In this document: piece by piece, positions 28,457 to 55,142 of the stretch
How positions within the stretch are numbered: position 1 is the first letter of the stretch
How the letters are laid out: every line of letters starts with the position of its first letter
Assembly: GCF_000284335.1 (NCBI RefSeq)
Contig: NC_017096.1
Span: forward strand, 1,240,001-1,304,000
Direction of reading: 5' to 3'
DNA: 64,000 nucleotides
Origin: Caldisericum exile AZM16c01
Lineage (GTDB): Bacteria; Caldisericota; Caldisericia; Caldisericales; Caldisericaceae
Program-made: the position numbers and the translations under genes
The notes under the pieces: generated by a model
Seen by the model: only the letters and a program-made list of their open reading frames with translations
Told to the model about the DNA's origin: nothing
The model's database searches: none

Positions 28457-29504
28457 AATATTTTACTTACACCTGAAAAATATAAAAGTCCTCTTACTAC
28501 TTTTTAAAAAGCAAAAAATCCCTCCAACATTCAATGACGGACACTTAGTCATGTCGAGCGAATTTTGGTGTTTCATTAGTTGAGATTGGGGGTCTTTTTC
28601 CATCAGATTTTAAGTCATACCGAGCGAAGCGAGGTATCTCCTCATTTAATTAGAGGGAGACTTACAATTTCCCCCTCTAACTCCCCTTGAAAAAGAATGT
28701 TCTTTTGTTTTTATTAGTCATTCCGAAGTGGCGAAGCCACGAGGAATCTCCTCCTTTAATAGAGAGGGATTAAAAAGGCTCCCACTTTAACTCCCCCTGA
28801 AAAGCGGAGATTTCTCCTCACATTCGTTCGTCGAAATGACAAATTACCGAATCATTCCGAAGGAGCGTGAGCGACTGAGGAATCTCCTCCTTTAATTAAT
28901 TAGAGGGGGACTTGCGATTCTCCCCCTCTAACTCCCCCATTAAACCGAAGGGGATATTTCAACCCCTTCAAACTACCCATAAAAAACAAAAAAGTATTCT
29001 TGCTTGTTTTTAGAAGGAGTTGGAGGAGGGTGTCCTAATTTAGAGGCGGATTAAAAAGGCTCCCCCCCTCTAACTCCCCCTGAAAAGGCGGAGATCCCTC
29101 ACTTCCGTTCGGGATGACTTTTTGGGGGGGAGTATTGAGGGGGTTAGTTTCCCCCTCAAATTTGAGAGATCCCTCACTTTGTTCGGAATGACAAACGACG
29201 GTCATTCCGAAGTGGCGAAGCCACGAGGAATCTCCTCCTTTAATAGAGGGGGACTTGCGATTCTCCCCCTCTAACTCCCCCTAAACGGCAAAGGATTTTT
29301 ATTTTTTTGGGTGGAGTTAGAGGAGGGCATTGCCCTCCTCTATTAAAAGGAGATGCCTCAGAAAGTCATTTCGGCATGACACTTAATAGAAAGTGATGCA
29401 TCCATCTTCAACCATTTGAGGGGGTTAATAAGGCTCCTTTACTCTAACTTCCCTTGGAAAATTAAAAATGTTTGAAGGGTTTTGGGGATAGAGATAAAAT
29501 TCAT
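28457..29504. repeat. Repeat island 1: nested-GA palindromes and G/C-run hairpins
   Basis: About 1 kb without genes. Two modules alternate. Module A palindromes lie at 28617-28637, 28720-28747, 28810-28837 (minus), 28854-28883, 29094-29115 (minus), 29169-29189 (minus), 29204-29231 and probably 29353-29377 (minus). Module B hairpins of the form TTAGAGGGGGA-loop-TCCCCCTCTAA lie at 28650-28680, 28900-28931 and 29244-29273, with variants near 28760 and 29040. A further GGAGGGCATTGCCCTCC palindrome lies near 29325. Module A typically continues into CTCC and then module B. Composition is richer in G+C than flanking genes. No protein-coding frame is credible. Confidence 0.85.
28546..28838 (+). repeat. 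Long dispersed repeat, copy 1 (inverted partner at 54637-54922)
   Basis: About 290 bp that aligns, reverse-complemented, along its whole length with 54637-54922. Shared landmarks in order: TCATGTCGAGCGAATTTTGG, GATTGGGGGTCTTTTTCCA, CCGAGCGAAGCGAGGTATCT, the AGAGGGAGACTTACAATT hairpin and AAAGCGGAGATTTCTCCTC. Differences are scattered substitutions and short indels. Confidence 0.85.
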
Positions 29505-29510
29505 TATAAT
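29505..29510 (+). promoter_or_regulatory. -10 box of the amidotransferase gene, leaderless start
   Basis: TATAAT five bases before the ATG at 29516, with TTGGGG about 17 bp further up. There is no room for a Shine-Dalgarno site. Confidence 0.6.
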
Positions 29511-29515
29511 GGAAC

Positions 29516-30334
29516 ATGTGCCGAATACTTTTTGTAGAAAGCAACAAGGAAAATATTGAAACAGTATATTCGCTTATTGACGCTCTGGTTAAAGCATCTC
29601 AATCTGACAATACCTATGGAGAAACCCCTACAAGCCATCAGGATGGTTTTGGATATGTCCTTTTTGGAAAAAATGGTGAAAAATTATCACAAATTTACAC
29701 AAGGTCAACAAGTCCTATTTTTGAAAGTCCTTTAGAAATCAGAATATTCAAAGACACGTTAGCACGTTTTGAGAAATTTGCATTTGGATTTCATGTAAGA
29801 AAAAAATCCGCAGGTGAAGTAAATTTAATCAACACACATCCCTATATGTTTTCGCTTCCAAATGGGATTAACCTCTTCTTCATGCACAATGGAACTCTTG
29901 ACAAACCTCGAATTATGAAAGAATTTCTGATAGAGCTACCAAACGTTCTTTCAGATTCATTTACATTTTCATACATACTCTCAAGAAATTTTGAGAATCT
30001 ACTCAGCTTAAAGGAGCTCCTTAAAAACGGTGTAAAGTTTGTGATGAAAGATAGCGGCTTTAACACGATAACGCTCATTTTAAACGGATCAAAACTTGAT
30101 GCAATAATCACAGCCTACTATACAGGCAAAAAGGAATATTACAAAGCCTACTTAATTGAAGAAAAAGGTCTTACTTCATTTATGTCAAGCACATTAAAGC
30201 AGTATCTTGATGACACCATCAAAAGAAAACTTAAAGTTATTGGCGAAGAACCTTTTCTCGGCACGCTTATCACAGTTGAAAATCTTCTCTCCGATAATAC
30301 TTCGATAACAAAAGAGCAATTTCTATTTAAATAA
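29516..30334 (+). CDS. Class II glutamine amidotransferase (YafJ/EgtC-like)
   Basis: A 272-residue N-terminal-nucleophile amidotransferase. Cys2 directly after Met is the predicted nucleophile. GFHVRKKSAG, NTHPY and FFMHNGTL match the substrate and oxyanion positions of the YafJ/EgtC type. It has no synthase domain, so the ammonia acceptor or hydrolysed gamma-glutamyl substrate is unknown. Stands alone between repeat island 1 and the convergent pilus operon. Confidence 0.9.
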   Translation: MCRILFVESNKENIETVYSLIDALVKASQSDNTYGETPTSHQDGFGYVLFGKNGEKLSQIYTRSTSPIFESPLEIRIFKDTLARFEKFAFGFHVRKKSAGEVNLINTHPYMFSLPNGINLFFMHNGTLDKPRIMKEFLIELPNVLSDSFTFSYILSRNFENLLSLKELLKNGVKFVMKDSGFNTITLILNGSKLDAIITAYYTGKKEYYKAYLIEEKGLTSFMSSTLKQYLDDTIKRKLKVIGEEPFLGTLITVENLLSDNTSITKEQFLFK

Positions 30335-30352
30335 AATTGATAGAGGTTAATT

Positions 30353-31567
30353 CTACTTGTTTATAAGACTTGGCAAAGTAAACATTGGAAGATACATTGC
30401 AAGTGCAATAAATCCAACGATTACACCGAGGATAACAATTAGTGCAGGCTCAATCTTTGAGGCAAGATTTCTAAGCGTGTAATCAAGGGATCTATCCCAC
30501 AAATCTGCAAGGCGCTCTAAGGATGAATCGAGAAGCCCTGATCTTTCGCCAACTGATACCATCTGCACCATAACCCTTGGGAAAAAACTTCTGTGTGTAA
30601 GAGATTCTGAGAAACTTTCTCCTGATCGTATATCTTTAGCAACTTCTTCAATTTCTTTTATTATATAGGCGTTATTTGCAACAGAAGACGCAATCATAAG
30701 ACCATCTAAAATGTTATAACCACTTCCACTAATAAGAGCAAGGGAACGCACAAACCTTGAAAGGCTTCCAAATTTATTTATCCGCCCAAAAAGTGGTATT
30801 TTCAATTTTAGTAAATCAATTGCAAGGCGCCCCTTTTTTGTAGAATAAATGATTCTGTAAATAGCGTAAAACATCACAATTACAGCAACAATTATATACC
30901 ACTTAAAGCGTATAAAGTTGCTCACAGAAAGCAAAATTCTTGTTGGAGTTGGCAAATTTGCACCAGCCGCAGTAAACATTGCAGTGAATCTCGGTAAAAC
31001 AACCGAAAGCATAAATATTACAACACCTGTAACAACAATTACCACAAATTTTGGATATGCGAAGGCACTCGAAATCTTCCTTCGAATGTCTAAATCTCTT
31101 TCAAGATATTGATAAATTCCAAACAAGACTTTGTCCAGACGCCCTGTTGCCTCTCCCACAGTAAGCAAACTTGTATAAATTGAAGAAAACACACTTGGAT
31201 ATTTCTTAAAGGCGTTACTTATGGAAGTTCCTCCCTCGATATTTTCCTTTATATCCATAATTATCTTTTTTAAAGTTGGATTTTCTTCCTGGTCGTAAAG
31301 TCCTTGAAGTGCATCAACTATTGTTAAGCCAGACTGGATAAGCGTTGCAAGTTCGCTTGTAAAAAGGATTAATGCTTCATCATTAACCTTTGACACACCG
31401 AAACTTAGATTTAATTTTATTTTTGAAGCCCTAAACTCCTTTATTTCGAGAGGATACAGTCCCTTTCTTTCAAGAATTGCATGAACTTCGTTTTTTGAAG
31501 AGGCATTAATTTGACCTTTTACGGTTTTCCCATTTTTATCAACGGCAATGTATCTAAATTCGCTCAT
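30353..31567 (-). CDS. pilC: Type IV pilus / type II secretion inner-membrane platform protein PilC/GspF
   Basis: A 404-residue protein with two T2SSF domains (about 65-190 and 265-390), each followed by hydrophobic helices, and the signature FTSELATLIQSGLTIVDAL. It anchors the assembly motor in the inner membrane. Start ATG overlaps the pilB stop by 4 bp (ATGA). It is the last gene of the pilus operon. Confidence 0.94.
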   Translation of the reverse strand: MSEFRYIAVDKNGKTVKGQINASSKNEVHAILERKGLYPLEIKEFRASKIKLNLSFGVSKVNDEALILFTSELATLIQSGLTIVDALQGLYDQEENPTLKKIIMDIKENIEGGTSISNAFKKYPSVFSSIYTSLLTVGEATGRLDKVLFGIYQYLERDLDIRRKISSAFAYPKFVVIVVTGVVIFMLSVVLPRFTAMFTAAGANLPTPTRILLSVSNFIRFKWYIIVAVIVMFYAIYRIIYSTKKGRLAIDLLKLKIPLFGRINKFGSLSRFVRSLALISGSGYNILDGLMIASSVANNAYIIKEIEEVAKDIRSGESFSESLTHRSFFPRVMVQMVSVGERSGLLDSSLERLADLWDRSLDYTLRNLASKIEPALIVILGVIVGFIALAMYLPMFTLPSLINK

Positions 31568-33240
31568 AAGCCTGCAACTCTTTCAACTTCTTTAAGTGTA
31601 GTAATGCCTGCTCTTGCCTTGATTAAGCCTGCCTGTCTCATCGAAATCATGTTAGACCTAATTGCCTCTTCTTTTATTTTATTGTAAGGAGCAGATTTTT
31701 CTATAAGTTCCCTAATACTCTCGTTTACTTCCATTATCTCAAAAATGCCAGTCCTTCCTTTGTATCCTGTCTCGCCACAGATAGGGCACCCTTCACCTGT
31801 AAAAAGTTTATCAACATCAACCTTTAGTTCATGTAAAAAAACCTCTTTTTCAGATTGATCTGCCGTATATTCCCTTTTACAATTTGGACAAATGACACGC
31901 ACAAGCCTTTGAGCGATAACTCCTGCAAGTGATGAAGCAAGTAAGTAGGGCTCAACCCCAAGATTAAGAAGCCTTATAGGAGTTGATGCTGCATCGTTTG
32001 TATGAATGGAGGCAAATACAAGATGTCCAGTTAGAGATGCCTCAACCGCAATTTTTGCTGTTTCAAGGTCTCTAATTTCTCCAACCATCACGATATCTGG
32101 GTCAAGTCTTAAGATCGACCTTAGGCCAGATGCAAATGTGATACCTGCCTCTTCGTTAATTTGGATTTGGACAATACCACTAATGTTATATTCAACAGGA
32201 TCTTCGAGAGTTATTATTTCTTTCTCTCCTGTATTAAGCGTTGAAATTGCAGAATAAAGAGTGGTAGTTTTTCCAGACCCTGTTGGGCCTGTTACAAGAA
32301 TAATACCATATGGGCGCTTTATAAGATTCAAAAATACATCAAACTGTTCTTTGAGCATCCCGAGTCGCTCAAGGGGCATCAGTAATTTTTGCTTACTTAG
32401 AATTCTTATATTTAATTTTTCCCCAAAAGATGTTCCCATTGAGGATACCCTAAAATCGTAGAATTCATCTTCGTGTTTTGCAGAAAAATGACCATCCTGA
32501 GGACGACGTCTTTCTGCAATATCCATACCGGAATTCACTTTTATAAGAGACACAATTGACTCTGCAATCTCTTTAGGAATACTCAAAATATCATACATAA
32601 TGCCATCAATTCTATAACGCACCTTTGCAATATTTTGTTGCGGGTCGATATGAATATCAGAGGCATTTCTTCCGATAGCATCCGATATAATTGAATTTGC
32701 AAGATTTACTGTTGTTGGTTCTGCACCTGTAGGCACCTCTGAAATTACACGAATTTGTGCCTCTTCTCTTTTTCTTCCAATTGTTGAGATCACTTTATCA
32801 ACTTTTGTTTCAATGGAGTATATTTTGTTAAGCGCCCTGTCAAATTCACTATCACTTATAATGTAAGGTTTTACCTTAAGACCGGTAAGCAACTTCACAT
32901 TCTCAAGAACTTCAGGATTTATTGGTGGAACAACTGCTACTTCAAGAGCATCATTTATCCTTCTTAATGGCAAAACCTTATTTACTCTTACAAAAAGTTC
33001 GGGAAGCACACTTGAAATATTCGGATCAGGTTGTATTTCTTCAAGCGAAATAGAAGGAATACTTGATTGTCTTTCGAGAAGCTTTGATAATTCCGTTGGT
33101 GTTATAAGTCCTCTTTCGATTAAAATCTCACCCAATTTTCTTCCTGTTTTAGCCTGTTCAAGAAGTGCACTCTCAAGTTGTTCTTTTGATATTTTTCCCT
33201 CATTAAGAAGGATTTCTCCGAGTTTAAGATTTCCGGTCAT
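31564..33240 (-). CDS. pilB: Pilus assembly ATPase PilB/GspE
   Basis: A 558-residue AAA+-like motor. The N-terminal MshEN/GspII_E domain starts LGEILLNEGKIS and repeats as LGEILIERGLIT. Walker A is GPTGSGKTTT, an Asp box IITLEDPVEY follows, Walker B is DPDIVMVGEIRD, and a zinc tetra-Cys is formed by CPNC and CPICGETG. The start is ATG at 33240, overlapping the pilO stop as ATGA; an in-frame start at 33267 would run far into pilO. It powers polymerisation of pilins. Confidence 0.95.
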   Translation of the reverse strand: MTGNLKLGEILLNEGKISKEQLESALLEQAKTGRKLGEILIERGLITPTELSKLLERQSSIPSISLEEIQPDPNISSVLPELFVRVNKVLPLRRINDALEVAVVPPINPEVLENVKLLTGLKVKPYIISDSEFDRALNKIYSIETKVDKVISTIGRKREEAQIRVISEVPTGAEPTTVNLANSIISDAIGRNASDIHIDPQQNIAKVRYRIDGIMYDILSIPKEIAESIVSLIKVNSGMDIAERRRPQDGHFSAKHEDEFYDFRVSSMGTSFGEKLNIRILSKQKLLMPLERLGMLKEQFDVFLNLIKRPYGIILVTGPTGSGKTTTLYSAISTLNTGEKEIITLEDPVEYNISGIVQIQINEEAGITFASGLRSILRLDPDIVMVGEIRDLETAKIAVEASLTGHLVFASIHTNDAASTPIRLLNLGVEPYLLASSLAGVIAQRLVRVICPNCKREYTADQSEKEVFLHELKVDVDKLFTGEGCPICGETGYKGRTGIFEIMEVNESIRELIEKSAPYNKIKEEAIRSNMISMRQAGLIKARAGITTLKEVERVAGL

Positions 33241-33797
33241 GGTTGAGCCATCCTTTCGTAGACCCACCTATCAGAGGAGTTAGTAAATACGTAAAATACT
33301 ATGTCTAAGGATGAATCAATGCCATGAAATGAAAAATTAACCTCTTTTATGTGCATCTTGTAATTCTCAAGATATTCAAAAATCTTTATAACACTATTAT
33401 AGTTTGCTTTAAACTCTATGCTTACAGGTAAAGTTTTTAGTGGTGGACTTGTGTCAAGAACAGTTGAAAGTGTTGAAAATGTTATGTGCTGCAGATCAGC
33501 ACCGTTACTTGCACAGATATCATAAAAATTCTTAAAAAAACTAAGAAGTGAGTCATCATTAAAGAAATTTGATTTAATTTCCGAAATACTTGCTTTACTT
33601 TTTTCTATTTGGCTCTTTAAAGTTTCAATTGTGCCAGATTGTGCAACAAGTTCTTGAAGTTCCGCAGTTTTAAGCGAAAGTGCTCTTGATGTAGAATAGA
33701 GACTAAACGTAAGAAAGCCTGCATAAAAAAGCACAAGTGCGATTTCAATTAACGCAATGATAATAAAAATGTTTGTAAGTCGCCCATTCTTTTTCAT
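33237..33797 (-). CDS. pilO: PilO-like pilus assembly protein
   Basis: A 186-residue bitopic protein: one transmembrane helix (about 10-32), a short coiled coil (about 38-72) and an alpha/beta ferredoxin-like periplasmic domain. This layout and position after PilM-N identify it as PilO, although sequence identity to known PilO is not obvious by eye. It overlaps its neighbours by 4 bp on both sides. Confidence 0.8.
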   Translation of the reverse strand: MKKNGRLTNIFIIIALIEIALVLFYAGFLTFSLYSTSRALSLKTAELQELVAQSGTIETLKSQIEKSKASISEIKSNFFNDDSLLSFFKNFYDICASNGADLQHITFSTLSTVLDTSPPLKTLPVSIEFKANYNSVIKIFEYLENYKMHIKEVNFSFHGIDSSLDIVFYVFTNSSDRWVYERMAQP

Positions 33798-35251
33798 TTT
33801 GCCTTCCTCATTTGCATCTCCATGCTAAAGATATTTGAACCTTCCTTATCTTTAATTATCTCAAGAACAGTTGCATTTTTCAGGTATTTTGCACCTGAAA
33901 GATTCTCCTCAAAGTTAAACACATTTTTGAATGTATTTGATGTGCCTCTTAACGAAACTGAACCATCTTCTTTAAGCGCAAGTTCGATTAAAGATACACC
34001 CTGCGGCGATAAACTCTGTAATTCCTTTAAAACAAGAGAATATTTAGGAAGTGTATAAATTGACACCTCCAGATTTTTTAAAGAATTCAAAGTTCCATTT
34101 ACTGCCTGCAACTCTAATTGCAATTTATTTACATCCAAAACAGGCTTTGAAATCTCACTTATGGACTTCTTAACACTATTTAACTTTTCTGTTGTCGATT
34201 TTAAACTACCAGAAAGATATGGGTATGCTAAAGCAAATGCACCATTTACGACAACAAGAACAAGAACCATTGTAAGAACTTTTAGGCGCTCTGACAATTT
34301 TTCTCTTAGAAAGTGCTCTGTAAGAGATAAATAATACGCTTCACCTCTTTTAATAAGTGAAGATAACGCAAGGCCAACTGCAACAACAAACTCATTTCCA
34401 CCAGTTTTCTGATACTTTATAAAGTCACTTTCATCTTCAAATGACACATTTTCAGGAAGTGTCAATAACAACACTGGTATGGGAACCCTTCCTGTTAGAT
34501 ATGGCAACATATCAAAACTTTCACTGTTATTAATTACAAGATAAATCTTCTTAATGGCAATATTCAAATTTCTTGACACATAATTGAGAGATGAAACAAT
34601 ATTCCCAACCCAAGTGCCTTTCAAAGAAACATCGTTTTCCTTAAACGCTTGGAAACCAACATCCTGAGTATAATTGAAGATGATTCTCTTTCCTTTAGAA
34701 ACCGTAAGAGTTGTTGTAGCCCTATCAACATTTACAACTGCATAGGAATCATCTTTGTATAGTTCGTCTATAAACTCAGCAATTGCAAGTTGAGGAATCG
34801 TTATCCTCCTTGTTTTTATGCCTACCTTATGAAGAAAATTTAAAGTTGAAAGAAGTGTTGACTCTTTTGTTGCAGCCCAAATAACCTCAACACCTTCCTC
34901 AGTTTTCTCCAATTCAGCAAATCCGAGAGAAACATTTTCACCTTCAAAAATTGCATAATCTCTTATCTCTGTTTGAATGAGTTTTACAATTTTTTCTTGC
35001 GGAAGTTTTGGAACGGTTTTAAGCCTTGTAAGGACTGCACTTGCGGGAAGAGAAATTGCACAACTATCGTATCGATTTTTTCTTAGGAATGCCTTCAAAG
35101 AATCTATAACTTCTTTATTCTGCGAAACATTGTTAAAATCATCAAAACTTATTTCAAAGAGCGATTTAATGGTAATTTCTTCGCCTCTTTCAACAAGTGC
35201 ACACCTTATCGCATTTTCACTAATTGAAACACCTAAAAGTTTCTCACCCAT
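33794..35251 (-). CDS. pilM: PilM-PilN fusion protein
   Basis: A 485-residue protein joining two usually separate pilus proteins. Residues 1 to about 310 form a PilM actin-like ATPase: LLGVSISENAIRCALVE, SLPASAVLTRLKTVP, VNVDRATTTLTVSKG. Then a transmembrane helix (about 328-346), coiled coil and a PilN-like periplasmic domain (about 395-480: SPQGVSLIELALKEDGSVSLRG). Normally PilM docks on the cytoplasmic tail of PilN; here they are one chain. pilO follows with a 4-bp overlap. No frameshift is visible. Confidence 0.85.
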   Translation of the reverse strand: MGEKLLGVSISENAIRCALVERGEEITIKSLFEISFDDFNNVSQNKEVIDSLKAFLRKNRYDSCAISLPASAVLTRLKTVPKLPQEKIVKLIQTEIRDYAIFEGENVSLGFAELEKTEEGVEVIWAATKESTLLSTLNFLHKVGIKTRRITIPQLAIAEFIDELYKDDSYAVVNVDRATTTLTVSKGKRIIFNYTQDVGFQAFKENDVSLKGTWVGNIVSSLNYVSRNLNIAIKKIYLVINNSESFDMLPYLTGRVPIPVLLLTLPENVSFEDESDFIKYQKTGGNEFVVAVGLALSSLIKRGEAYYLSLTEHFLREKLSERLKVLTMVLVLVVVNGAFALAYPYLSGSLKSTTEKLNSVKKSISEISKPVLDVNKLQLELQAVNGTLNSLKNLEVSIYTLPKYSLVLKELQSLSPQGVSLIELALKEDGSVSLRGTSNTFKNVFNFEENLSGAKYLKNATVLEIIKDKEGSNIFSMEMQMRKAK

Positions 35252-35257
35252 ACGGAC

Positions 35258-37360: not shown

Positions 37361-37456
37361 AACCTCCCCTTAGTAAAATTATACATAATTAAAATAAAAG
37401 TCAAGTAATATGCCTTCATTATTAGCCACATTTTTTAATAAAATTCCCCTATAGAA

Positions 37457-37462
37457 TATAAT
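37457..37462 (+). promoter_or_regulatory. -10 box of the pth-mfd operon, leaderless start
   Basis: TATAAT eight bases before the pth ATG at 37471. No Shine-Dalgarno site in the gap. Confidence 0.55.
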
Positions 37463-37470
37463 AAATTGAT

Positions 37471-44152: not shown

Positions 44153-44720
44153 ATCTTAATTATACAAGAGTTTAAAGATATTTAAGTAAGTTATACAATC
44201 AACATGGTTTATTATTTTGGTTCTATCAAATATATTCTCAAATCCTTTCACTTTTTTTCTTCCAAGTTATTAACTCATATACTAAGGCTTTAACTTCCCA
44301 TGAACTTCGGAGGTCCCTCACATTCGTTCGGGATGACTTTTTTGGGGGAGTACTGAGGGGGATTGTTTCCCCCTCAAGTTTGAGAGATTTCTCAGTCGCT
44401 TTTGCTCCTTCGAAAAGGCCAATTACTATTTTTGGGTGGAGTCGGAGGAGGGATACCCTCCTCCATAATATAGGTATTTCTCCTCACAACGTTTGTCAAA
44501 ATGACACTTAATAGAAATAAGCATTACATTTTCAACAATTTAGAAGAGAGTCAGTTTTCCTTCTAAGATAATGGATATTGATAGAGTCAAATCACTTCTT
44601 AAAATTAACAAAGAGGCTTATGTTTACACGAGAGCCATCTCAACCAAGAGGTAAATTTGAAGAACATTTATGCTTTTCAAGAAACCATTACTAAAAACCT
44701 AAAATTCATGCTTTACATTC
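44153..44720. repeat. Repeat island 2
   Basis: A gene-free stretch. The core 44303-44520 holds module A palindromes at 44313-44334, 44387-44416 and 44476-44502 (all minus orientation) and the palindrome GGAGGAGGGATACCCTCCTCC near 44451. The part 44308-44394 aligns directly with 29088-29176 of island 1, and 44410-44507 aligns inverted with 54550-54643 of island 3. The remainder (44153-44300 and 44520-44720) is AT-rich with no feature that I recognise apart from the phosphoesterase -10 box. Confidence 0.8.
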
Positions 44721-44723
44721 TGC

Positions 44724-44752
44724 TTGCAAAAAATTATAAACTAGAGTATAAT
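44724..44752 (+). promoter_or_regulatory. Promoter of tRNA-Ser
   Basis: TTGCAA (44724-44729), 17-bp spacer, TATAAT (44747-44752); tRNA begins 12 bp later. Confidence 0.8.
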
Positions 44753-44763
44753 AATTGCGGTTT

Positions 44764-44857
44764 GGAGAGATGGCCGAGTAGGCTGAAGGCACTCGCCTGC
44801 TAAGCGAGTGAGGGGCTTAAAACCCCTCCGCGGGTTCGAATCCCGCTCTCTCCGCCA
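44764..44857 (+). tRNA. tRNA-Ser (anticodon GCT)
   Basis: A 94-nt class II tRNA. Acceptor GGAGAGA/TCTCTCC, anticodon stem ACTCGC/GCGAGT with loop CTGCTAA giving GCU (Ser AGY codons), long variable arm GAGGGGCTTAAAACCCCTC, T arm GCGGG-TTCGAAT-CCCGC, discriminator G and an encoded CCA. Confidence 0.96.
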
Positions 44858-44865
44858 GACTCCCT

Positions 44866-45004
44866 CCAAAAATCCTTTTTGGTCAACGGAGGAGCTTCCC
44901 CCTCTCCTCCGTAATAAAAAATCAAAGGCAGGCTTCCCCCCTTGCCTGTCTTTAAGAAGCACACCTCCTCGGGTCAGGTATCCCTCCGCCTGGCCCGTTT
45001 TTTA
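44866..45004 (+). ncRNA. Candidate RNA: hairpin series with C-rich loops, ending in a terminator
   Basis: Just after tRNA-Ser come four stem-loops. The first is weak: CCAAAAA/TTTTTGG with loop TCC (44866-44882). H1 44886-44912 is a perfect 9-bp stem ACGGAGGAG/CTCCTCCGT with loop CTTCCCCCT. H2 44924-44953 has stem AAAGGCAGGC/GCCTGTCTTT (one G-T wobble) and loop TTCCCCCCTT. H3 44970-44997 has stem CGGGTCAGG/CCTGGCCCG and loop TATCCCTCCG, followed by six T, so it also serves as terminator. The loops share a CCCC(C/T)CC-like face that could pair with Shine-Dalgarno sequences. Whether this is a separate RNA or a tRNA trailer is unknown. Confidence 0.5.
44970..45003 (+). terminator. Intrinsic terminator after tRNA-Ser and the hairpin series
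   Basis: 9-bp G+C-rich stem (one G-T pair), 10-nt loop and T6 tract. It isolates tRNA-Ser from rdgB. Confidence 0.85.
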
Positions 45005-45021
45005 TTTCAATAACTTTTCAC

Positions 45022-45027
45022 TATAAT
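45022..45027 (+). promoter_or_regulatory. -10 box of rdgB, leaderless start
   Basis: TATAAT six bases before the rdgB ATG at 45034. No Shine-Dalgarno site. Confidence 0.6.
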
Positions 45028-45033
45028 TAATCG

Positions 45034-45786
45034 ATGGTAAAAATTCTTGTTGCAACAAAAAACAAAGGCAAACTCAAAGAGATTCAAGAAATTCTTGGTG
45101 ATTTACCTATTAAATTAATGCCGCTTCCCGAAAGCGCCTCTGATGTAGAAGAAAATGGCTCGACTTATCTTGAAAACGCTCTCATTAAGGCAAAAACATA
45201 CGGGCAAAAATACAAACTCATAACTCTTGCTGATGACTCAGGCCTTGAAATAGATGCTTTAAACGGGCTCCCAGGCATTTATTCGTCACGATATCTGGGT
45301 AAGGACACACCATTCGAAGAAAAGATGAAAAACATCCTTGAACTAATGAAGAACAAAGATAACCGAAAGGCACGCTTTAGATGTATAAGTGTGCTCTACT
45401 TCCCAAATGAGGATAAATTTGTGAGTTTTGAAGGTGTTGTTGAAGGAGAAATTTTAAAAGAGATTTGTTACGGAAACTCTGGTTTTGGATACGATCCAAT
45501 CTTTAAGCCCGATGGATTTGATAAAAGTTTTTCAGAGTTAGGCACTGAGATAAAAAATAAGATAAGCCATAGGTCAAAAGCCTTAGCACAGGTAAGAGAC
45601 TATATCGAGAATAATCTTTTAGGAGGAGAAATGATCGAAATAAAAATTAACGGTAAGCGTCTTCCTGCAAATAAATATGTTTATTCGGTTTTCGAAAAAG
45701 TCATTTATGCCATTCTTTCAACACTTAAAGACCTTCCCGAAATCGAAACTGTTGAGATAAAAATCGAAAAAAAAGAAGAAAAATAA
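45034..45786 (+). CDS. rdgB: RdgB/HAM1 non-canonical purine NTP pyrophosphatase with C-terminal extension
   Basis: A 250-residue protein. Residues 1-199 are a complete RdgB, which hydrolyses dITP, XTP and similar: TKNKGKLKEI, DDSGLEIDALNGLPGIYSSRY, GFGYDPIF, ISHRSKAL. The usual family length is about 195-205. The last 51 residues (MIEIKINGKRLPANKYVY...) are extra. They begin at an in-frame ATG (45631) with a perfect AGGAGGAG six bases upstream, so the tail may also be made alone as a small protein. Confidence 0.93.
   Translation: MVKILVATKNKGKLKEIQEILGDLPIKLMPLPESASDVEENGSTYLENALIKAKTYGQKYKLITLADDSGLEIDALNGLPGIYSSRYLGKDTPFEEKMKNILELMKNKDNRKARFRCISVLYFPNEDKFVSFEGVVEGEILKEICYGNSGFGYDPIFKPDGFDKSFSELGTEIKNKISHRSKALAQVRDYIENNLLGGEMIEIKINGKRLPANKYVYSVFEKVIYAILSTLKDLPEIETVEIKIEKKEEK
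45621..45786 (+). CDS. Possible nested 51-residue protein at the end of rdgB
   Basis: AGGAGGAG (45621-45628) precedes ATG 45631, in frame with rdgB. The product (MIEIKINGKRL...) would be a small alpha/beta protein with a charged end. It is unrelated to the RdgB fold and is easiest to read as an originally separate gene fused to rdgB. Coding coordinates from the ATG are 45631-45786. The independent product is an inference. Confidence 0.4.
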
Positions 45787-46347
45787 TTACTTACTCCCGC
45801 TCATTCTTATTCGCCCTACAATATCTACTATAACATAAAAGGTTTTCGTCCCTGTTGAATTTGTTATTTCAATTGTGTCAAAAGAATTAGGTTGGCCCCT
45901 GAAATGATCATCTTTTCCACAATAAAATTGGAGATAATAGTATTCTTTACCATTTATCCATCCTAACTCTTTAAATGGTTTATGTGCAGTAAATTTGAAA
46001 TTGTACTTCAAATCTCTTCTCACAAAATGAATTCCATCTGGAATATCATTTGGATTGTAATGCACTCCATTAAGTGGGTCTTTAAGAAAGGTTTCAAACA
46101 TATAGAAATTCCTTGATGAGGAAGGATTAGTGCAAAAATAAACTCTTAGATCCTGTTGGTATAAAATAGCTGATTCCCTAACCAACTTCAAATCCTGCAC
46201 TAATTGCCATGAAACTTCTTCAAGTTCTCTACTTACTATGAAACTATTTAAGTAAGGAATGGAGATTCCAAGCAAAATTAGTACTATCACTATAACAACA
46301 GATAATTCTATAAAAGTAAAACCTCTTTTCTCTATATTGCCTTTCAT
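45787..46347 (-). CDS. Type IV prepilin-like protein (GspH/FimT-like)
   Basis: A 186-residue pseudopilin. Leader MKGNIEKRG^FTFIELSVVIVIVLILLGISIPYLNSF, then a segment RELEEVSWQLVQDLKLVRESAILYQQDLRVYF, typical of GspH/FimT minor pilins. Start ATG 46347 with GAGGAAG; an in-frame GTG at 46353 is less likely. Last gene of the eight-gene minor-pilin run; tail-to-tail with rdgB with no gap. Confidence 0.87.
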   Translation of the reverse strand: MKGNIEKRGFTFIELSVVIVIVLILLGISIPYLNSFIVSRELEEVSWQLVQDLKLVRESAILYQQDLRVYFCTNPSSSRNFYMFETFLKDPLNGVHYNPNDIPDGIHFVRRDLKYNFKFTAHKPFKELGWINGKEYYYLQFYCGKDDHFRGQPNSFDTIEITNSTGTKTFYVIVDIVGRIRMSGSK

Positions 46348-46374
46348 TCTCACTTCCTCAAATGTTTTTTCTCA

Positions 46375-48342: not shown

Positions 48343-48354
48343 CTTGCTCACCTC

Positions 48355-49044
48355 CTATTGTTTTAAAGTTATTTGCATAATTCGAACAAACTTTTTTCCT
48401 TCCTTTGAAAATGGAGCTTTCAAATATGTCTCCACTATTATTTGAAAAACCTTCGGTGAATAACTCGGCCTTATCACGGTAAAATTTGTAATTACTTGTT
48501 CTGTGATCGGTTGGTTTGTTATTCCAGTCCAGGTTGTTCCATTCCATGTTTCATTTGAATATAAAACTTCACACGGTTCGTATAGTTTATTAAGCCAATA
48601 TTCTCTTGGGATTCCTGAATAACTGCCGTTATTTTGAGGTACGCCTAATGAATAAGTTATGCGGTGCGTGGTCCCATTATTATCCTTGATATAAAATTGA
48701 AGAATTGGGTCTGAATTAATAAAAGAATAATAGTCGTGACTAGAATCAAGGGGGTAAGGATTTACTAAGTCTTGCAAACTTCTCTTAGAATCATTGGATG
48801 GATTATACGATGGAAAGGTGACACCTGAGAATCCACTACTATCATTGTATATCGAGGCTTGCATTAATTCTTTCTTTATTTGAGAAAGCAATGTATCTAT
48901 GTTATCCTGTATATTCTGATTTACTTGTATATACCTTGCAAAAGAGCTAATATAAGAAAATGACGAAAGGCCAATATACAGAAGTATCAGCATAATAACC
49001 ATTGCAACCATAAGTTCAATTAGAGTAAAGCCTTTTCTCTTCAT
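48355..49044 (-). CDS. Type IV prepilin-like protein (PilW/GspJ-like)
   Basis: A 229-residue pseudopilin with leader MKRKG^FTLIELMVAMVIMLILLYIGL. The next part (IDTLLSQIKKELMQASIY) is the PilW/GspJ arrangement. TAATG start overlap with the upstream gene. Confidence 0.87.
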   Translation of the reverse strand: MKRKGFTLIELMVAMVIMLILLYIGLSSFSYISSFARYIQVNQNIQDNIDTLLSQIKKELMQASIYNDSSGFSGVTFPSYNPSNDSKRSLQDLVNPYPLDSSHDYYSFINSDPILQFYIKDNNGTTHRITYSLGVPQNNGSYSGIPREYWLNKLYEPCEVLYSNETWNGTTWTGITNQPITEQVITNFTVIRPSYSPKVFQIIVETYLKAPFSKEGKKFVRIMQITLKQ

Positions 49045-49874
49045 TAACTTCCTCCATATGAAGTAAGCTTTATCTTTACGGAATATGACTTTTCTTCAAG
49101 TCCCTCAATCCAATATACTGTCACTTCAACATCAAACCACTGTACGTGGTCAGGATCCGTAATCCTTTGCTTCCTTGCAACAATCTTTGTTAGTACTCTA
49201 TAACCTTTATATTCTTTCGTTTTCGAAGCAATAGCACCATCGTTTGTATAATACGGAGTAAAGTTAGGATTGTTAGAATTCGTAAGACCAGCACCTTTCA
49301 CGTAAATCTTGGGGACATAATTTTCACCAGATTTAAAGAAATCTATTCTTTCTGGGTTTAGCATCCCGTTTATTGTTCTAGTTAAAGGAAACCTTACAAC
49401 CAAAACATTATTAGTTACTCGGTCATAATATTTTCCTTGCGATACATATAGATTTGCATCTTCCAAAGCAGGATTAGTATCCGAAACATATCCATTTTCA
49501 CCTAAGGAAACGAAACCCTGTAATGAAAAGTAAAAGGCAGAAGGTTTATCGTTGAATTTTTCGCTTGGCAAGGCAGGACTTACATTTAAGGAAAGGGGAG
49601 TGCCGTAAATGTCAACAAGACCAGGCAAAGGATGCGTATTATCATTTCCAAAGAGGCTTATATCGTAACCTAAAGTATTATCATAAGTGACATTCTTAGA
49701 TCTTATGTAATCGATAACATAGTTTGCCAAGTCTTTCGCAATTTGCCTTGACTCAGCTCTTTTTTCGGCAACGTTAATAGACATCGCAGCACTTGTCACA
49801 GAGACAACTATAAAAGTGACTACTATGATTGACACCATTGTCTCAATTAAAGTAAAACCCCTTCGCTTTTTCAC
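49044..49874 (-). CDS. Type IV prepilin-like protein (PilV/GspI-like)
   Basis: A 276-residue pseudopilin: MKKRRG^FTLIETMVSIIVVTFIVVSV. GTG start behind GGAGGAG. The mature domain is large for a minor pilin and rich in Tyr/Asn. Overlaps the next gene by one base. Confidence 0.87.
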   Translation of the reverse strand: MKKRRGFTLIETMVSIIVVTFIVVSVTSAAMSINVAEKRAESRQIAKDLANYVIDYIRSKNVTYDNTLGYDISLFGNDNTHPLPGLVDIYGTPLSLNVSPALPSEKFNDKPSAFYFSLQGFVSLGENGYVSDTNPALEDANLYVSQGKYYDRVTNNVLVVRFPLTRTINGMLNPERIDFFKSGENYVPKIYVKGAGLTNSNNPNFTPYYTNDGAIASKTKEYKGYRVLTKIVARKQRITDPDHVQWFDVEVTVYWIEGLEEKSYSVKIKLTSYGGS

Positions 49875-49883
49875 TTCTCCTCC

Positions 49884-50462
49884 TTACCTTTTAACCCATT
49901 CTATTGATATGTTGCCTAATTTAGAAATAGTTATTCGTATAACTTTATTTTTGTTTGTTGTTGAAATAAAAATTCCATAAGTATTATCGTTTGTTTCTTT
50001 GCAATAGTAATTTGGATTGCCAAAGTTATCAAAATTTAATTTCACGTATGCAAGCGGTGGAGACAGAATATTAGAAAGATTATCAAAAGTTGCAAGATAT
50101 ATTTTTTGTATTTTTATACCATCTCCTAAAACAATTTTCTCAACGGCACCAGACATCGTCTTGGTTACAGGATCAAAGGAAGCATTCAAATCCTTTTCTA
50201 CATATATAGTATTATCGGCAGGGAAGAAATATACCTCAAATTTTCCTGAATCTTTTGTGGTACTATATGTGACCGCCTTGTTTTGTGCATATAACAGAGT
50301 TTGTTGAATTTGAATAGCCGCATTATACAAACTTCTTTCGACAAAAGTACCAGGCAAAATGCCAAAGCCAATCCCAATAATTACAATGACTACAAGTATT
50401 ACTACCAACAACTCTAATAATGTGAACCCTCTTTTAGAACGGTGTAACATTGTTAAAGTCAT
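49884..50462 (-). CDS. Type IV prepilin-like protein (GspH/FimT-like)
   Basis: A 192-residue pseudopilin with MLHRSKRG^FTLLELLVVILVVIVIIGIGFG and AAIQIQQTLLYAQNKAVTYST, the GspH/FimT hallmark. Two in-frame ATGs (50462, 50450); GGAGAG lies 12 bases before the first. Overlaps the upstream gene by 29 bp. Confidence 0.85.
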   Translation of the reverse strand: MTLTMLHRSKRGFTLLELLVVILVVIVIIGIGFGILPGTFVERSLYNAAIQIQQTLLYAQNKAVTYSTTKDSGKFEVYFFPADNTIYVEKDLNASFDPVTKTMSGAVEKIVLGDGIKIQKIYLATFDNLSNILSPPLAYVKLNFDNFGNPNYYCKETNDNTYGIFISTTNKNKVIRITISKLGNISIEWVKR

Positions 50463-51915
50463 CTATTGAAATTTCTCTCCATGCATTAGGTGATTGTTCC
50501 GCAGCAGTAATTACATTCTTTACGCTTGCAGTCCCACCAGGAGTCCCCACAATGCTTAGATTAGACATCGAAACTGGTCTATAGAAGATATTATATGTAC
50601 CATTCAAGTTCACTGCACCTTTCGATACTATGGCACCATAGCAATCAAATGTTCCACCACCAGAAAATGAACCGGTGCTGTAAAAAATTCCTTTCAATAG
50701 CGCATTACCATTTGCAATCTCCACGTTGCCATTAACAAGCATTGCCAATGCTCCATCGTTATCAACGGTTGAATTGCCATTTATCATAAGATTGCCATTA
50801 ACTACAATTGTACCTTGTAATTTTACAGTCCCGTTTATATGAGCATCTCCCTCAATAAAGTAAACAATGTTTTTAGCATTATCTTTTAACTGCTGCCATT
50901 TCAAAACATCAAGCCCTACAAATAATCCACTTTTTGATGATAGGTCTTTGTAGAAGGTAACAATTTGCGAAAGTGAGGAATTATATGATGTCCCAAGATA
51001 CGAAGTGATAATCGTGTGAAGTATTGGATCAGTAGTATTTGGATAATCTGATCTGCTTCCATCATAAGGTTTTCCTCCGGTCTTAAATGCAAGTGCAAGA
51101 TTCTTATAATAATCTACATTGAGCATCGGGAATTCAATTGGATTTTGTCCTGAGTATGCTCCAATTTGTGCTACTCCTTTTCCAGTAATTGCACCTACTG
51201 CGTATGCAGTTCCACCACCATATTGTGGATCATAAGCAATTCTTATCTTTCCTTTTGCTGGACCCAAGTCAATATTGCCATTCGCAAAAACATTTCCTGC
51301 AACCTCTTGAGCATTACCGTTGAAGGCTATATCCGAACCGGAGAAAATACCATAATTAAAGACCTCCGAATTAGGAGGAATGTCTGTTGGAGTTATGGTA
51401 CTTTTGTGATAAGTTACAGCCATTTCAGTGTATACTGCTTTTTGGGCAACAATATTATTATTTTGTTTTACAAACCCAAGGGCATAAACCCCAATGAAAA
51501 TTGTTTTATCTCCATCCAATCCAATGTCTGGGTCCCAACTGGCAACATCACCTTTGTTAAGCCTCTTTATTTTTGCCTTATAGTAGGTATCTGGGCTCGA
51601 TGAAAGTGATGCAGCATCTTTAGACAAAACATAACCAGGGGGATTTTTTACGATTGCTTTTACATCTGAAACAGTAAGATAGTGAAATGCGGAAGGTGGA
51701 TTGATTACATTGTTGCCTAGATCCGAATTTCTTAAGTCAAAGGCGATTTGGCTTATACAAGCCTCAGCAGCCGTTAATGCCCGCTCAGAAGTTGATTGTG
51801 CATTCGAAATAGCCTTTTCCGGCACTATTTTTAAAACGATACCGACAATAGAGGCAAAAACCAATGCGCTTATCAAAACTACAGTAATTAAAGCAACTCC
51901 TTTTCTTTTACTCAT
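50434..51915 (-). CDS. PilX-like protein with polymer-forming beta-helix segment
   Basis: A 493-residue protein. N-terminus MSKRKGVALITVVLISALVFASIVG, then ALTAAEACISQIAFDLRN as in PilX. The C-terminal half has serial short strands with NGN/NG turns (IEGDAHINGTVKLQG, VVNGNLMINGN, VNGNVEIANGN), a bactofilin-like beta-helix. Start ATG 51915 behind AAGGAGGTGAG; an in-frame start at 51999 would overlap the upstream pilin. Second candidate tip protein of the cluster. Confidence 0.75.
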   Translation of the reverse strand: MSKRKGVALITVVLISALVFASIVGIVLKIVPEKAISNAQSTSERALTAAEACISQIAFDLRNSDLGNNVINPPSAFHYLTVSDVKAIVKNPPGYVLSKDAASLSSSPDTYYKAKIKRLNKGDVASWDPDIGLDGDKTIFIGVYALGFVKQNNNIVAQKAVYTEMAVTYHKSTITPTDIPPNSEVFNYGIFSGSDIAFNGNAQEVAGNVFANGNIDLGPAKGKIRIAYDPQYGGGTAYAVGAITGKGVAQIGAYSGQNPIEFPMLNVDYYKNLALAFKTGGKPYDGSRSDYPNTTDPILHTIITSYLGTSYNSSLSQIVTFYKDLSSKSGLFVGLDVLKWQQLKDNAKNIVYFIEGDAHINGTVKLQGTIVVNGNLMINGNSTVDNDGALAMLVNGNVEIANGNALLKGIFYSTGSFSGGGTFDCYGAIVSKGAVNLNGTYNIFYRPVSMSNLSIVGTPGGTASVKNVITAAEQSPNAWREISIDDFNNVTPF

Positions 51916-51928
51916 AAATCTCACCTCC

Positions 51929-52510
51929 TTATGGTGATTGTTCATTCGAATTTCTTGAATAAATAAGTGAAGTATAAGATATTGTCTGTTCTTTTCCAAA
52001 ATAATTAAGATTCCCCACCATCATAACAACAACCTTCCCACCTTGCCTTGCAAAGTAAAGTTTAACAAGTTGCTTCATATTTTCAGTGACTGGCTCACCT
52101 ATGGAAGTGGGCGAAGTTCCATGTAAATATTTTACTCTATAAACAGCGTTGCCATTCGTGGTGTTCTTCATTCGATATCTTATATCCCATGTATCAATTC
52201 CATCATAATAAGTAAAAATAAGTTCTTCACCCATAGCGTTTCCCGAATGTATGGAATCGTCAGGGGCCAAGATGAGACTAAAGTTACTTCCTTCAGGTTT
52301 GCTTGCTTGCATTAAGTCAGAGCTAATTCTTGACAGAGCGTATCTAAAATTTTGTTGAAGTATCATCTCTTGGTCATAATAAGTCCTTAATCTCATCCAA
52401 CTCGAAATTCCTGAAAAAGCAATGGTAAAAATTAAAATAAGAATAGCTAGAGAAACAACCAATTCGATTAATGTAAACGCTTTCCTTCCACTATGATTGG
52501 CTTCTAACAT
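51929..52510 (-). CDS. Type IV prepilin-like protein (PilW/GspJ-like)
   Basis: A 193-residue pseudopilin, leader MLEANHSGRKA^FTLIELVVSLAIL. Ala replaces the usual Gly at the -1 cleavage position, which some prepilin peptidases process less well. Then QNFRYALSRISSDLMQASKPEG, the PilW/GspJ pattern. Overlaps the upstream gene by 20 bp. Confidence 0.85.
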   Translation of the reverse strand: MLEANHSGRKAFTLIELVVSLAILILIFTIAFSGISSWMRLRTYYDQEMILQQNFRYALSRISSDLMQASKPEGSNFSLILAPDDSIHSGNAMGEELIFTYYDGIDTWDIRYRMKNTTNGNAVYRVKYLHGTSPTSIGEPVTENMKQLVKLYFARQGGKVVVMMVGNLNYFGKEQTISYTSLIYSRNSNEQSP

Positions 52511-53237
52511 AGCTTTTTTCTCCTGTTACGACTACACTCTTTTGTGTATTACCAACTATCCAATACACGATAACTCTTATTTCATAGATTTTGTTATTTA
52601 GGTTAGTAATTGTTGGGGTTTTATCAATAATGATGATTCGCTTTGTGTAGTGAGGATAAACCTCCTTATGAAGCACCAATGTAAAGTCATAATAAGACTC
52701 ATTTTGGGTTTCGTCGATTCTTAATCGAGGAATTATTTCAATATTAGGAGGAAGCATTACATTACTCACATCAGGCACTGGAGGAGGATTTGAAACGGTG
52801 CCAGTTGCTGACTCTATACCACAGATATTAAGAATATGCTCCATTCTAAAGGAACCATCCATAGGATAATAACTGTTTGTGGTAGGATCATACCTTATAG
52901 AATCGTAGACATTCTCATACGTTGTCCCATAATCCAAAAAATATGGAGAGCCGGGCGGCGGAGGATTTGATGGTTTTGCTGGATAATTAGGTTCATCATA
53001 CGTTATATTTGTTGGAAACTGTCCACCTCTTATTAAAGAATCTATAATAGATACAGAAAGCCCTTTAACATCTTCCAATTGAAGTTGCGCTAAATTTTGA
53101 CCAATAGATTTGTATCGTAAATCCTTCACTGAAGAATAGTAAGAATAATAACCTGACAAGAGTACTACCACAGCAACCATGAATATTGCTAATGCAACGA
53201 TTACTTCAATTAAAGTGAAGCCCCTCTTCTTTTCCAT
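52491..53237 (-). CDS. Type IV prepilin-like protein (PilV/GspI-like), first gene of the run
   Basis: A 248-residue pseudopilin: MEKKRG^FTLIEVIVALAIFMVAVVVLLSG. AQLQLEDVKGLSVSIID follows, as in PilV. Start taken as ATG 53237 with GAGGAA six bases upstream; the ATG at 53243 is too close to that site. The Pro-rich loop NYPAKPSNPPPPGSP is unusual. Confidence 0.86.
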   Translation of the reverse strand: MEKKRGFTLIEVIVALAIFMVAVVVLLSGYYSYYSSVKDLRYKSIGQNLAQLQLEDVKGLSVSIIDSLIRGGQFPTNITYDEPNYPAKPSNPPPPGSPYFLDYGTTYENVYDSIRYDPTTNSYYPMDGSFRMEHILNICGIESATGTVSNPPPVPDVSNVMLPPNIEIIPRLRIDETQNESYYDFTLVLHKEVYPHYTKRIIIIDKTPTITNLNNKIYEIRVIVYWIVGNTQKSVVVTGEKSYVRSQS

Positions 53238-53368
53238 ATTCATTTCCTCAAAATATTATATGTTTATTTAAAAAAATTACAACAAAATTTTTTGTCAAGG
53301 GAGTAAAATATAACTATTAGGAGTATAATTTTAATAGAAGTTTAAAATTTTTCTTTAGGGAGGTTTAT

Positions 53369-54352
53369 ATGAAAGTTGTCGTGATGGGAAATTATCCAAA
53401 AAACTTGTTAGAGATGTTTGAGAAGTACAAAAAAGAATTTGGTGCTGAAGATATTGAGGTAGTTATTCCAAAGGATGATTCAGAAAAGATTGATGCCTTA
53501 AAGAACGCAGTTGCAGTTATTTCAGGATCATTGACTGAGAACGATTTAAACAATGCCCCAAATTTGAAATTCATTCAAGTGCCTTTTGCAGGAGTTGATA
53601 CCTACGATATTCCTGATCTTATAAGGCGTGGGATAAAGATCGCAAATGTGCATTCAAATGCAACTGCTGTTGCAGAATTTGCAATGGCACTGGTGCTTGC
53701 GCTTGCAAAAAATGTAGTTGAAGGCGACAGAGATTTGAGAATTGGATATTGGCACGGATGGATGTCAAGAGAACCAACCATTAGTCTTGAAGGAAAAACG
53801 ATGACAATCCTTGGGCTTGGAAGCATTGGAAAAGAAATTGCACGATTTGCAAAGTCATTTGGGATGTATGTTATTGGGGTAAAAAGAGAAAAGGTTGATG
53901 GAACCATTCCTAATGTTGACGAAGTTTACACTCATGCAGAAATTGAACAGGCAATTGAAAAGGCTCATTTTGTTGTATGCGCATTGCCACTTACACCAGA
54001 AACAAAAGGAATGATTAATAGAAGACTGTTTGAAAAAATGGCAGGAAAGTTTTTTGTAAATGTTGGGCGTGGTGCAGTCGTGAACGAAGAGGATCTTTTC
54101 GTTGCACTCAAAAATGGAATTTTAAAAGGTGCAGGTATTGATACATGGTGGGTATATCCACAGGCACCAATGCAAACCGCAATGCCCTCAAAATATCCAT
54201 TTCACGGCTTAAAGAATATAATAATGACACCGCATGCAGCAGGTTTTACCGATGTAACCCCACAAAGAATGTGGGAAGATTCAGTTAAAAATGTTTTACG
54301 TTTCCTTAAAGGATTACCTATTGAAAATGAAGTAAAAGAGGTGGGATATTAA
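53369..54352 (+). CDS. D-2-hydroxyacid dehydrogenase
   Basis: A 327-residue NAD(P)H-dependent dehydrogenase. Seen: ILGLGSIGKEIA (Rossmann), NVGRGAVVNEEDL with catalytic Arg, and the catalytic His in TPHAAG. The family includes glyoxylate/hydroxypyruvate reductase and 3-phosphoglycerate dehydrogenase; no C-terminal ACT domain is present. It could work with the glyoxylate aminotransferase at 12-13 kb (inference). Start with GGGAGG. Divergent from the pilin run. Confidence 0.92.
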   Translation: MKVVVMGNYPKNLLEMFEKYKKEFGAEDIEVVIPKDDSEKIDALKNAVAVISGSLTENDLNNAPNLKFIQVPFAGVDTYDIPDLIRRGIKIANVHSNATAVAEFAMALVLALAKNVVEGDRDLRIGYWHGWMSREPTISLEGKTMTILGLGSIGKEIARFAKSFGMYVIGVKREKVDGTIPNVDEVYTHAEIEQAIEKAHFVVCALPLTPETKGMINRRLFEKMAGKFFVNVGRGAVVNEEDLFVALKNGILKGAGIDTWWVYPQAPMQTAMPSKYPFHGLKNIIMTPHAAGFTDVTPQRMWEDSVKNVLRFLKGLPIENEVKEVGY

Positions 54353-54636
54353 CTCAATTTGAGGGGGTGCAAGTCACCACAATATCTCCTAATCTTAGAA
54401 GGAAAACTGGCTACCTTTAAATGGTTAAAGAAGCATTTCCCTTTTAATAGAGGAGCGGCACCCTCCTCCAACTCCACCCAAAAAATAAAAATCCTTTTTA
54501 TCCTTAGGAGTAAGTTAGAAAGGGGGCACATCCCCTTTCTATTAAGGTTCATTTTGACAAACATTGTGAGGAGAAATACCTATATTATGGAGGAGGGATA
54601 CCCTCCTCCGACTCCACCCAAAAATAGTAATTGGTC

Positions 54637-54922
54637 TTTTCGACGAACGAATGTGAGGAGAAATCTCCGCTTTTCAGGAGGAGTTAGAGGGGGGCCTTTT
54701 TAATCTCCCTCTCTAATGTAAACTGAGGAGATTCCTCGCCTTCGGCTTCGGAATGACTAACAAAATAAAAGCATTCAGTTTCAAGGGGAGTTAGAGGGGG
54801 AATTGTAAGTCTCCCTCTAATTAAATGAGGAGATACCTCGCTTCGCTCGGTATGAGTTAAAATCTGGTGGAAAAAGACCCCCAATCTCAACTAATGAGAC
54901 ACCAAAATTCGCTCGACATGAC
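54637..54922 (-). repeat. Long dispersed repeat, copy 2
   Basis: Reverse complement of 28546-28838 with scattered substitutions and short indels; contains one G/C-run hairpin pair and three module A palindromes. Confidence 0.85.
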
Positions 54923-55142
54923 TCAGCGTGTGTCATTTCGAAGAAGCGTAAGCGACTGAGAAATCTCCTCATTTCAATCTGAGCGGGAAACAAACCCCCT
55001 CAGCACTCCCCAAAAATTACTAAGTCACTCCGAGGAATGAAATGACGAGGAGTCTCCCAAGTTTAAGGGGAGTTAGAAGGGGAGCACAAGTCCCTCTCTA
55101 CATTTTAGTTTAGCTTTGAATTGCTCGGTTTGACAGAAAACT

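Follow-up and report, generated by a model that had tools for sequence, protein, structure and literature searches.

Palindromes with tandem GA steps in Caldisericum exile as probable DNA hairpin elements resembling repetitive extragenic palindromes

Introduction

What are the short GA-rich palindromes that recur in gene-free gaps of the Caldisericum exile AZM16c01 chromosome (NC_017096.1; one contig of 1,558,103 bases), and is it as RNA or as DNA that they fold? The question arises from a stretch of 64,000 nucleotides (positions 1,240,001-1,304,000; hereafter the window), for which the original prediction, made from the letters alone, described about 17 palindromes in three gene-free islands, each with a 5-bp outer helix, GA facing GA, a short core and a small loop, and regarded the GA strand as probably the structured one in an RNA. 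Our analysis argues, with a probability of about 82%, that the repeats are non-autonomous DNA hairpin elements resembling repetitive extragenic palindromes (REPs), in which tandem GA steps replace the continuous stem and which are set in arrays like those of REP doublets forming hairpins (REPINs) and bacterial interspersed mosaic elements (BIMEs).

Results

The repeat family and its outer helix

All of the palindromes quoted in the original prediction were found where it had placed them, and a covariance model recovered 17 window copies with E values between 2.7e-11 and 0.003, all within three intergenic islands at 28.6-29.4, 44.3-44.5 and 54.5-55.1 kb. Across the chromosome there are about 110 copies in about 34 intergenic islands; the model returned 106 matches genome-wide at E<=10. 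At E<=0.01 it gave 108 across own-genome stretches totalling 288 kb, and other stretches totalling 200 kb yielded nothing above noise (best E 0.67). The genome contains 21 matches, on either strand, to the exact pattern of the ATTCC form, GTCATTCCGA-N2..40-GAGGAATC, and 0 to the pattern read backwards, so that its occurrence is far beyond chance. The GTC and CTCC flanks proposed as shared were borne out, CTCC being present in most own-genome copies and also in 113 copies from outside this genome (foreign copies).

The proposal that the outer helix varies between copies yet stays paired was supported by 79 distinct copies, in which 97.4% of the outer-helix cells are paired (83.3% in shuffles), both sides have changed in 64 cells (16 in shuffles) and the covariation score was matched by 0 of 500 shuffles, in an alignment that was built with a model of the outer helix itself and is biased towards helix pairing. 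Double changes are present at four of the five outer pairs, the signal is lost when the partner is slid, and the changes are visible in the raw copy list (U-A, C-G, G-C and A-U at pair three; C-G and U-A at pair four). The first outer pair is A-U in 70 and G-U in 3 of the 79 copies, and the second is U-A in 70 and C-G in 8. The outer pairs of this family thus covary strongly and above background. The GA-facing-GA design also held: GA is retained in 71/79 copies on the 5' side and 72/79 on the 3' side, about 90% in this genome among copies recovered with a model trained on the GA columns, and it is near-invariant in the foreign copies, most of which were selected by a pattern requiring GA.

Loops, G-U intermediates and orientation

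RNA helices are expected to pass through many G-U steps between Watson-Crick states. In this genome 64 cells show double changes and 7 a single-sided change of the G-U type; the corresponding counts in other phyla are 42 and 1. The loops were evaluated on 188 distinct foreign interiors, drawn from other genomes and viral contigs and unconstrained in the selection. GNA accounts for 52 of 88 triloops, where base composition would predict 7.6%; all four bases occur at N, and 48 of the GNA loops are closed by c-g. The 44 tetraloops include 5 GNRA, 5 GNYA and 9 GNAB. Typical loops of the own genome are GNA triloops (GAA, GTA, GCA) and GAAT, a member of the GNAB class and the second commonest loop, and GC-GAA-GC is the literal core of several copies. 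The GAA triloop of the original prediction therefore stands, and GNRA as a typical loop does not (5/44 foreign and 7/26 own-genome tetraloops). To our knowledge no RNA class matches GNAB loops, which belong to a selected class of stable DNA tetraloops. DNA mini-hairpins in which a GNA or GNNA loop is combined with two G-C pairs are extraordinarily stable, GCGAAGC having a melting temperature of 78 C (PMC4686876).

Between co-directional genes the GA strand is sense in 18 cases and antisense in 27, and it is divided 61/55 by replichore. The islands occupy 14 tandem, 10 convergent and 10 divergent gaps, the divergent (promoter) gaps not being avoided. Orientation is mixed within most islands, with alternating inverted pairs and no preferred strand, so that transcription through an array would yield copies able to pair with one another. 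No clear excess of terminator-like sites or promoters was recorded at the repeats, terminator-like sites being no commoner than in shuffles. Rfam gave no match at gathering scores, and a permissive search of the first island returned only sub-threshold, implausible hits to unrelated families.

The scarcity of G-U intermediates, the GNA and GNAB loops and the mixed orientation without sense bias together point to DNA rather than RNA, leaving the interpretation of the motifs as RNA building blocks unsupported. For the repeats to be structured RNA, the GA strand would be transcribed and its tandem GA steps and GNRA loop would serve as a 3' untranslated-region element, an attenuator or a protein-binding RNA. 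The covariation is real, in 3/4 copies folded both ways the GA strand gives a stronger RNA fold than its complement, and some GNRA loops do occur; set against the loop classes that predominate, the near absence of G-U, the mixed arrays, the 10/34 islands in divergent gaps and the terminator and Rfam results, these points leave the RNA alternative very improbable. The earlier statement that no named RNA family fits agrees with the Rfam search, but the named DNA class, REPs and especially their CGTC/TGTC-tagged super-family, had been missed.

Array grammar and chromosomal placement

Neighbouring copies follow a regular grammar in this genome, with tail-to-tail gaps of 46-58 nt in 16/25 joints and head-to-head gaps of 8-10 nt in 21/26; same-direction neighbours are also seen, mostly 44-75 nt apart. 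The tail-to-tail spacer is a hairpin of its own, of the GAGGGGG/CCCCCTC type, and is present in 16 array joints of the genome, namely at window positions 28752-28805 (about 54 nt) and at 15 similar joints. These spacers form a second hairpin family with variants of its own (GAGGGGGAAACAACCCCCTCAGTACTCCCCC). Neighbours in other phyla are mostly inverted as well (40 tail-to-tail, 26 head-to-head and 10 same-direction). In several Flavobacterium genomes, two 26-bp copies separated by 48 nt form an inverted pair that is strictly conserved.

Modules have been shuffled between islands. The first and third islands of the window share an inverted duplicate of a composite array of about 260-280 bp (28540-28800 and 54650-54930), which includes the degenerate repeat GTCATGTCGAGCGAATTTT. 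On the chromosome, an arc of 763 kb (505-1268 kb) around the GC-skew switch, the likely terminus, is free of repeats, and every island lies in the half around the likely origin. Uniform placement gives p ~1e-10 for this, a value that is less extreme once gap length is considered, since the sampled intergenic gaps of that half are also longer.

Distribution, gain and loss

The statement of the original prediction that similar repeats occur in unrelated bacteria was confirmed by a scan of GTDB species genomes, in which the exact ATTCC type was present in at least 114 stretches from genomes labelled as more than 10 phyla; the labels are record names, and short contigs of metagenome-assembled genomes may be misbinned. 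Among the matches listed are Bacteroidota, Chloroflexi, Acidobacteria, Verrucomicrobia, Armatimonadota, Candidatus Magasanikbacteria, Daviesbacteria, Cyanobacteria, Candidatus Electronema, Calditrichia, Firestonebacteria, Kiritimatiellia, Actinobacteria and others. In the phylum of C. exile the exact form is found in this genus alone (5/54 genomes), and the covariance model extends the repeats to other genera of the taxonomic family; four congeners (G001-G004) carry repeats. The distribution is patchy, as with other REPs. Exact copies were also seen in many IMG/VR viral contigs, some of which hold five or six; these matches may include host flanks. A literature search for the literal repeat sequence gave primer-like or unrelated matches only.

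The gap orthologous to the first island lies between the same two genes in congener G002, where 97 bp without repeats separate the aligned flanks. Two further islands, of 836 and 642 bp here, are missing at orthologous gaps of 176 bp (G001 and G004) and 103 bp (G002), respectively. Islands are thus missing at three orthologous congener gaps, which means that they are gained or lost quickly. Contigs of G002 and G003 often terminate at repeats.

Search for a mobiliser

We considered the possibility that a REP-associated tyrosine transposase (RAYT) of the Y1/HUH type mobilises the repeats, the usual REPtron way. The 5' tag and hairpin in inverted pairs mirror REPINs, and a Y1_Tnp match is present in 39/47 other genomes that contain the exact repeat. 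However, no Y1_Tnp gene was detected in the complete genome of C. exile or in six relatives that carry repeats by the model (G001-G004, G008 and G013), a copy lies near only 1/30 Y1_Tnp loci and then about 700 bp away, and the tag is GTC preceded by A or T, not GTAG. The RAYT model is not supported by these results, and we regard it as unlikely. RAYT as mobiliser was rejected on the present data for want of repeat-flanked Y1_Tnp loci (that single locus of the 30). Di Nocera et al. 2013 (PMC3733652) describe CGTC-tagged REPs as lacking a dedicated transposase, and the result from the own genome agrees.

The repeats could alternatively be passive palindromes spread by recombination, template switching and gene conversion, with no transposase involved. 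This would fit the failure to find a mobiliser in the searches above and the shuffling of modules between islands, and template-switch correction would be expected to give perfect, wobble-free palindromes. Tag, helix and tail are, however, shared across genomes labelled as more than 10 phyla, and repeats have been gained at unrelated gaps; both points speak for an efficient spreading mechanism and make purely passive spread a somewhat improbable explanation, though less so than a RAYT.

An IS110-family element in the repeats

Outside the window, the chromosome carries four copies of a 472-amino-acid IS110-family protein (coding sequences 44649-46067, 53645-55063, 483738-485156 and 1476125-1477543) with two domains over cut-off, PF02371 (Transposase_20) and PF01548 (DEDD_Tnp_IS110), at 79.4 and 33.8 bits, respectively. 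One of them, copy D, has a coding sequence with nine or ten differences from the others (A-C). All four split a repeat at one position of its tag, GTCAT^..^CATTYCGA, with CAT as the core; the left junction reads ..GTCAT, the right one CATTTCGA.. or CATTCCGA.., and the target has two forms, GTCATTTCGAA and GTCATTCCGAA.

The 282 bp upstream of the coding sequence fold into two hairpins with guide-bearing internal loops, in the layout of a bridge RNA (PMC11208160). The target-side loop holds the guides GGTCAT and TTCGAAATG, and the donor loop, GGTACAT / TACGATG, is equal and complementary to the element ends ..ACGGTACAT and CATCGTATA... The leader is thus predicted to be bridge-RNA-like, with target and donor loops matching site and ends; it has no match in Rfam. 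Copies A-C pair guide TTCGAAATG with target CATTTCGAA and copy D pairs guide TTCGGAATG with target CATTCCGAA, one base of the right guide differing exactly where the helix of the target repeat differs. Four of the five upstream differences between D and A fall within the 18 guide bases (p 7e-5), and the match of guide and target type has p ~3e-4, given 11 and 29 of 105 repeats per type and independent insertions. The left guide matches GTCAT in all four copies; since its outer bases do not follow the changes of target, covariation is claimed for the right guide only.

As judged from these junctions, the element has inserted four times, always in a repeat tag where its guides match. We looked in other phyla and in relatives for an IS110 element inserted in the same repeat and recovered no clean case. 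We also evaluated the converse, that the repeats are remnants or terminal repeats of the IS110 element rather than pre-existing targets. All four copies do adjoin repeats, but the element ends carry none, four different repeats are split at the same tag position, and congeners G001-G004 have repeats and gave no match to the IS110 protein, making this origin scarcely credible.

Repeat copies in the window

The first island fills the entire intergenic gap (28457-29515) between rsmG on the minus strand and a class-II glutamine amidotransferase-like gene on the plus strand. Its first copy (28614-28641, plus) has the outer helix ATACC/GGTAT and the core GC-GAA-GC. It is followed by an ATTCC/GGAAT copy (28717-28751, plus) with the core (A)GTGGC-GAA-GCCAC, an identical 35-mer of which is found again elsewhere in the genome, and, tail-to-tail across the 54-nt spacer, by an ATTTC/GAAAT copy (28806-28840, minus). 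The latter lies head-to-head, at 10 nt, with an ATTCC/GGAAT copy that has a second GA/GA and a GTGA loop (28851-28887, plus). Further along are an ATCCC/GGGAT copy (29090-29118, minus), an ATTCC/GGGAT copy with one G-T pair (29165-29192, minus) that is head-to-head across the 8-nt spacer AAACGACG with an ATTCC/GGAAT copy (29201-29235, plus), and an ATGCC/GGCAT copy (29349-29380, minus).

The three copies of the second island are all on the minus strand: ATCCC/GGGAC with one outer pair broken (44309-44337), a degenerate TTTTC/GAAAT copy with a second GA/GA and an AAAA loop (44383-44419), and ATTTT/GAAAT (44472-44505). The third island begins with a degenerate copy (54548-54581, plus, E=0.003) and a TTTTC/GAAAT copy (54634-54668, plus), the latter tail-to-tail across 58 nt with an ATTCC/GGAAT copy whose core is (A)GCC-GAA-GGC (54727-54757, minus). 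ATACC/GGTAT (54829-54856, minus), ATTTC/GAAAT with a GTAA loop (54932-54968, plus) and ACTCC/GGAGT with GA-G-GA steps (55024-55057, plus) complete it.

Discussion

We propose that the unit is a GTC-tagged hairpin, predicted for single-stranded DNA. Its outer helix of 5 bp is followed by sheared tandem GA steps and a short core, which ends in a loop of the d(GNA), d(GNNA) or d(GNAB) class, and the unit closes with CTCC. Such units are paired tail-to-tail (about 54 nt) and head-to-head (8-10 nt) and in this way make up the intergenic arrays. The hairpin may form in single-stranded DNA during replication and could be copied in trans by a single-strand-acting enzyme, either one that the lineage has lost or one outside the Y1 type; an advantage to the cell, if any, would probably be secondary. 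Since the two arms have to match, a change on one side draws the complementary change on the other.

Several observations weigh against this reading. No enzyme moving the repeats was found in the own genome, and 29/30 Y1_Tnp loci of genomes with the exact repeat are without a nearby copy. The training of the covariance model on GA columns means that part of the GA conservation arises by construction, and the same applies to the foreign copies, most of which were picked by a fixed ATTCC..GGAAT plus GA pattern. DNA folding energies are weak for several copies, perhaps because standard folding parameters under-credit sheared GA and GNA loops, and the energies alone are not decisive.

A bolder extension is that the repeats represent a trans-phylum class of single-stranded DNA elements, recognized through the sheared-GA/d(GNA) mini-hairpin, spread by a new enzyme and engaged with IS110 bridge RNAs in a chase of guide against helix. 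This extension is speculative and we hold it to be doubtful, although not as improbable as any of the alternatives above; if it were true, compensatory helix drift would alter which copies an element can enter. REPs are common, and those of the CGTC type are not known to have a mobiliser; the present family lends them a physical signature, DNA mini-hairpin loops together with tandem GA steps, that is seen across many phyla and lends itself to searches and to testing in vitro. The IS110 insertions offer a natural case of a guide base changing along with a base of its repeat target. The analysis further cautions that covarying GA-rich palindromes can pass for new RNA families, and that counts of G-U intermediates and loop classes help to discriminate.

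REPs are known targets of the IS110 elements IS621, ISPpu9 and ISPpu10 (PMC11208160, PMC1525189), making the present element a new instance and not a new principle. It resembles them in its DEDD recombinase, its long upstream leader with two guide loops and its fixed insertion point in a REP, and differs in its target repeat and core, in having four copies only and in a guide variation that follows the helix variant. The cores recall the d(GCGAAGC) mini-hairpins of PMC4686876, many copies having GC-GNA-GC or GC-GNNA-GC, except that those are synthetic or aptamer motifs and the cores described here lie within a natural repeat family. Like REPINs and BIMEs (PMC3116915, PMC2817692), the repeats are non-autonomous hairpins that carry a tag, pair in inverted orientation and form mosaic arrays with two kinds of spacer, short and long; unlike the REPIN/RAYT systems of the same reports, they have no detected RAYT gene in C. 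exile or the six relatives, no repeat-flanked cognate and no GTAG tag.

The nearest likeness is to the CGTC-tagged REP super-family, which includes Neisseria dRS3 and Rickettsia RPE-4/RPE-6. Both (PMC3733652 for the super-family) are short intergenic palindromes forming inverted dimers in several phyla, with an unpaired 5' tag ending in GTC, a stem that begins A-T and, in the case of C. exile and its six relatives, no Y1_Tnp gene detected. Of 178 foreign copies, 138 have the tag TGTC and 29 CGTC, so that T or C precedes GTC in 167/178, and the preceding base is mostly A in the own genome (38/61); the tag thus agrees in part. The published super-family has stems of 8-9 bp, loops of 4-5 bases and a CCA tail, in contrast to the 5-bp helix, tandem GA steps, short core and CTCC tail found here. 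Compared feature by feature, the discontinuous stem and the lack of a CCA tail set the repeats apart from CGTC-1 to CGTC-4 and highlight them as REP-like elements that stand closest to the CGTC super-family.

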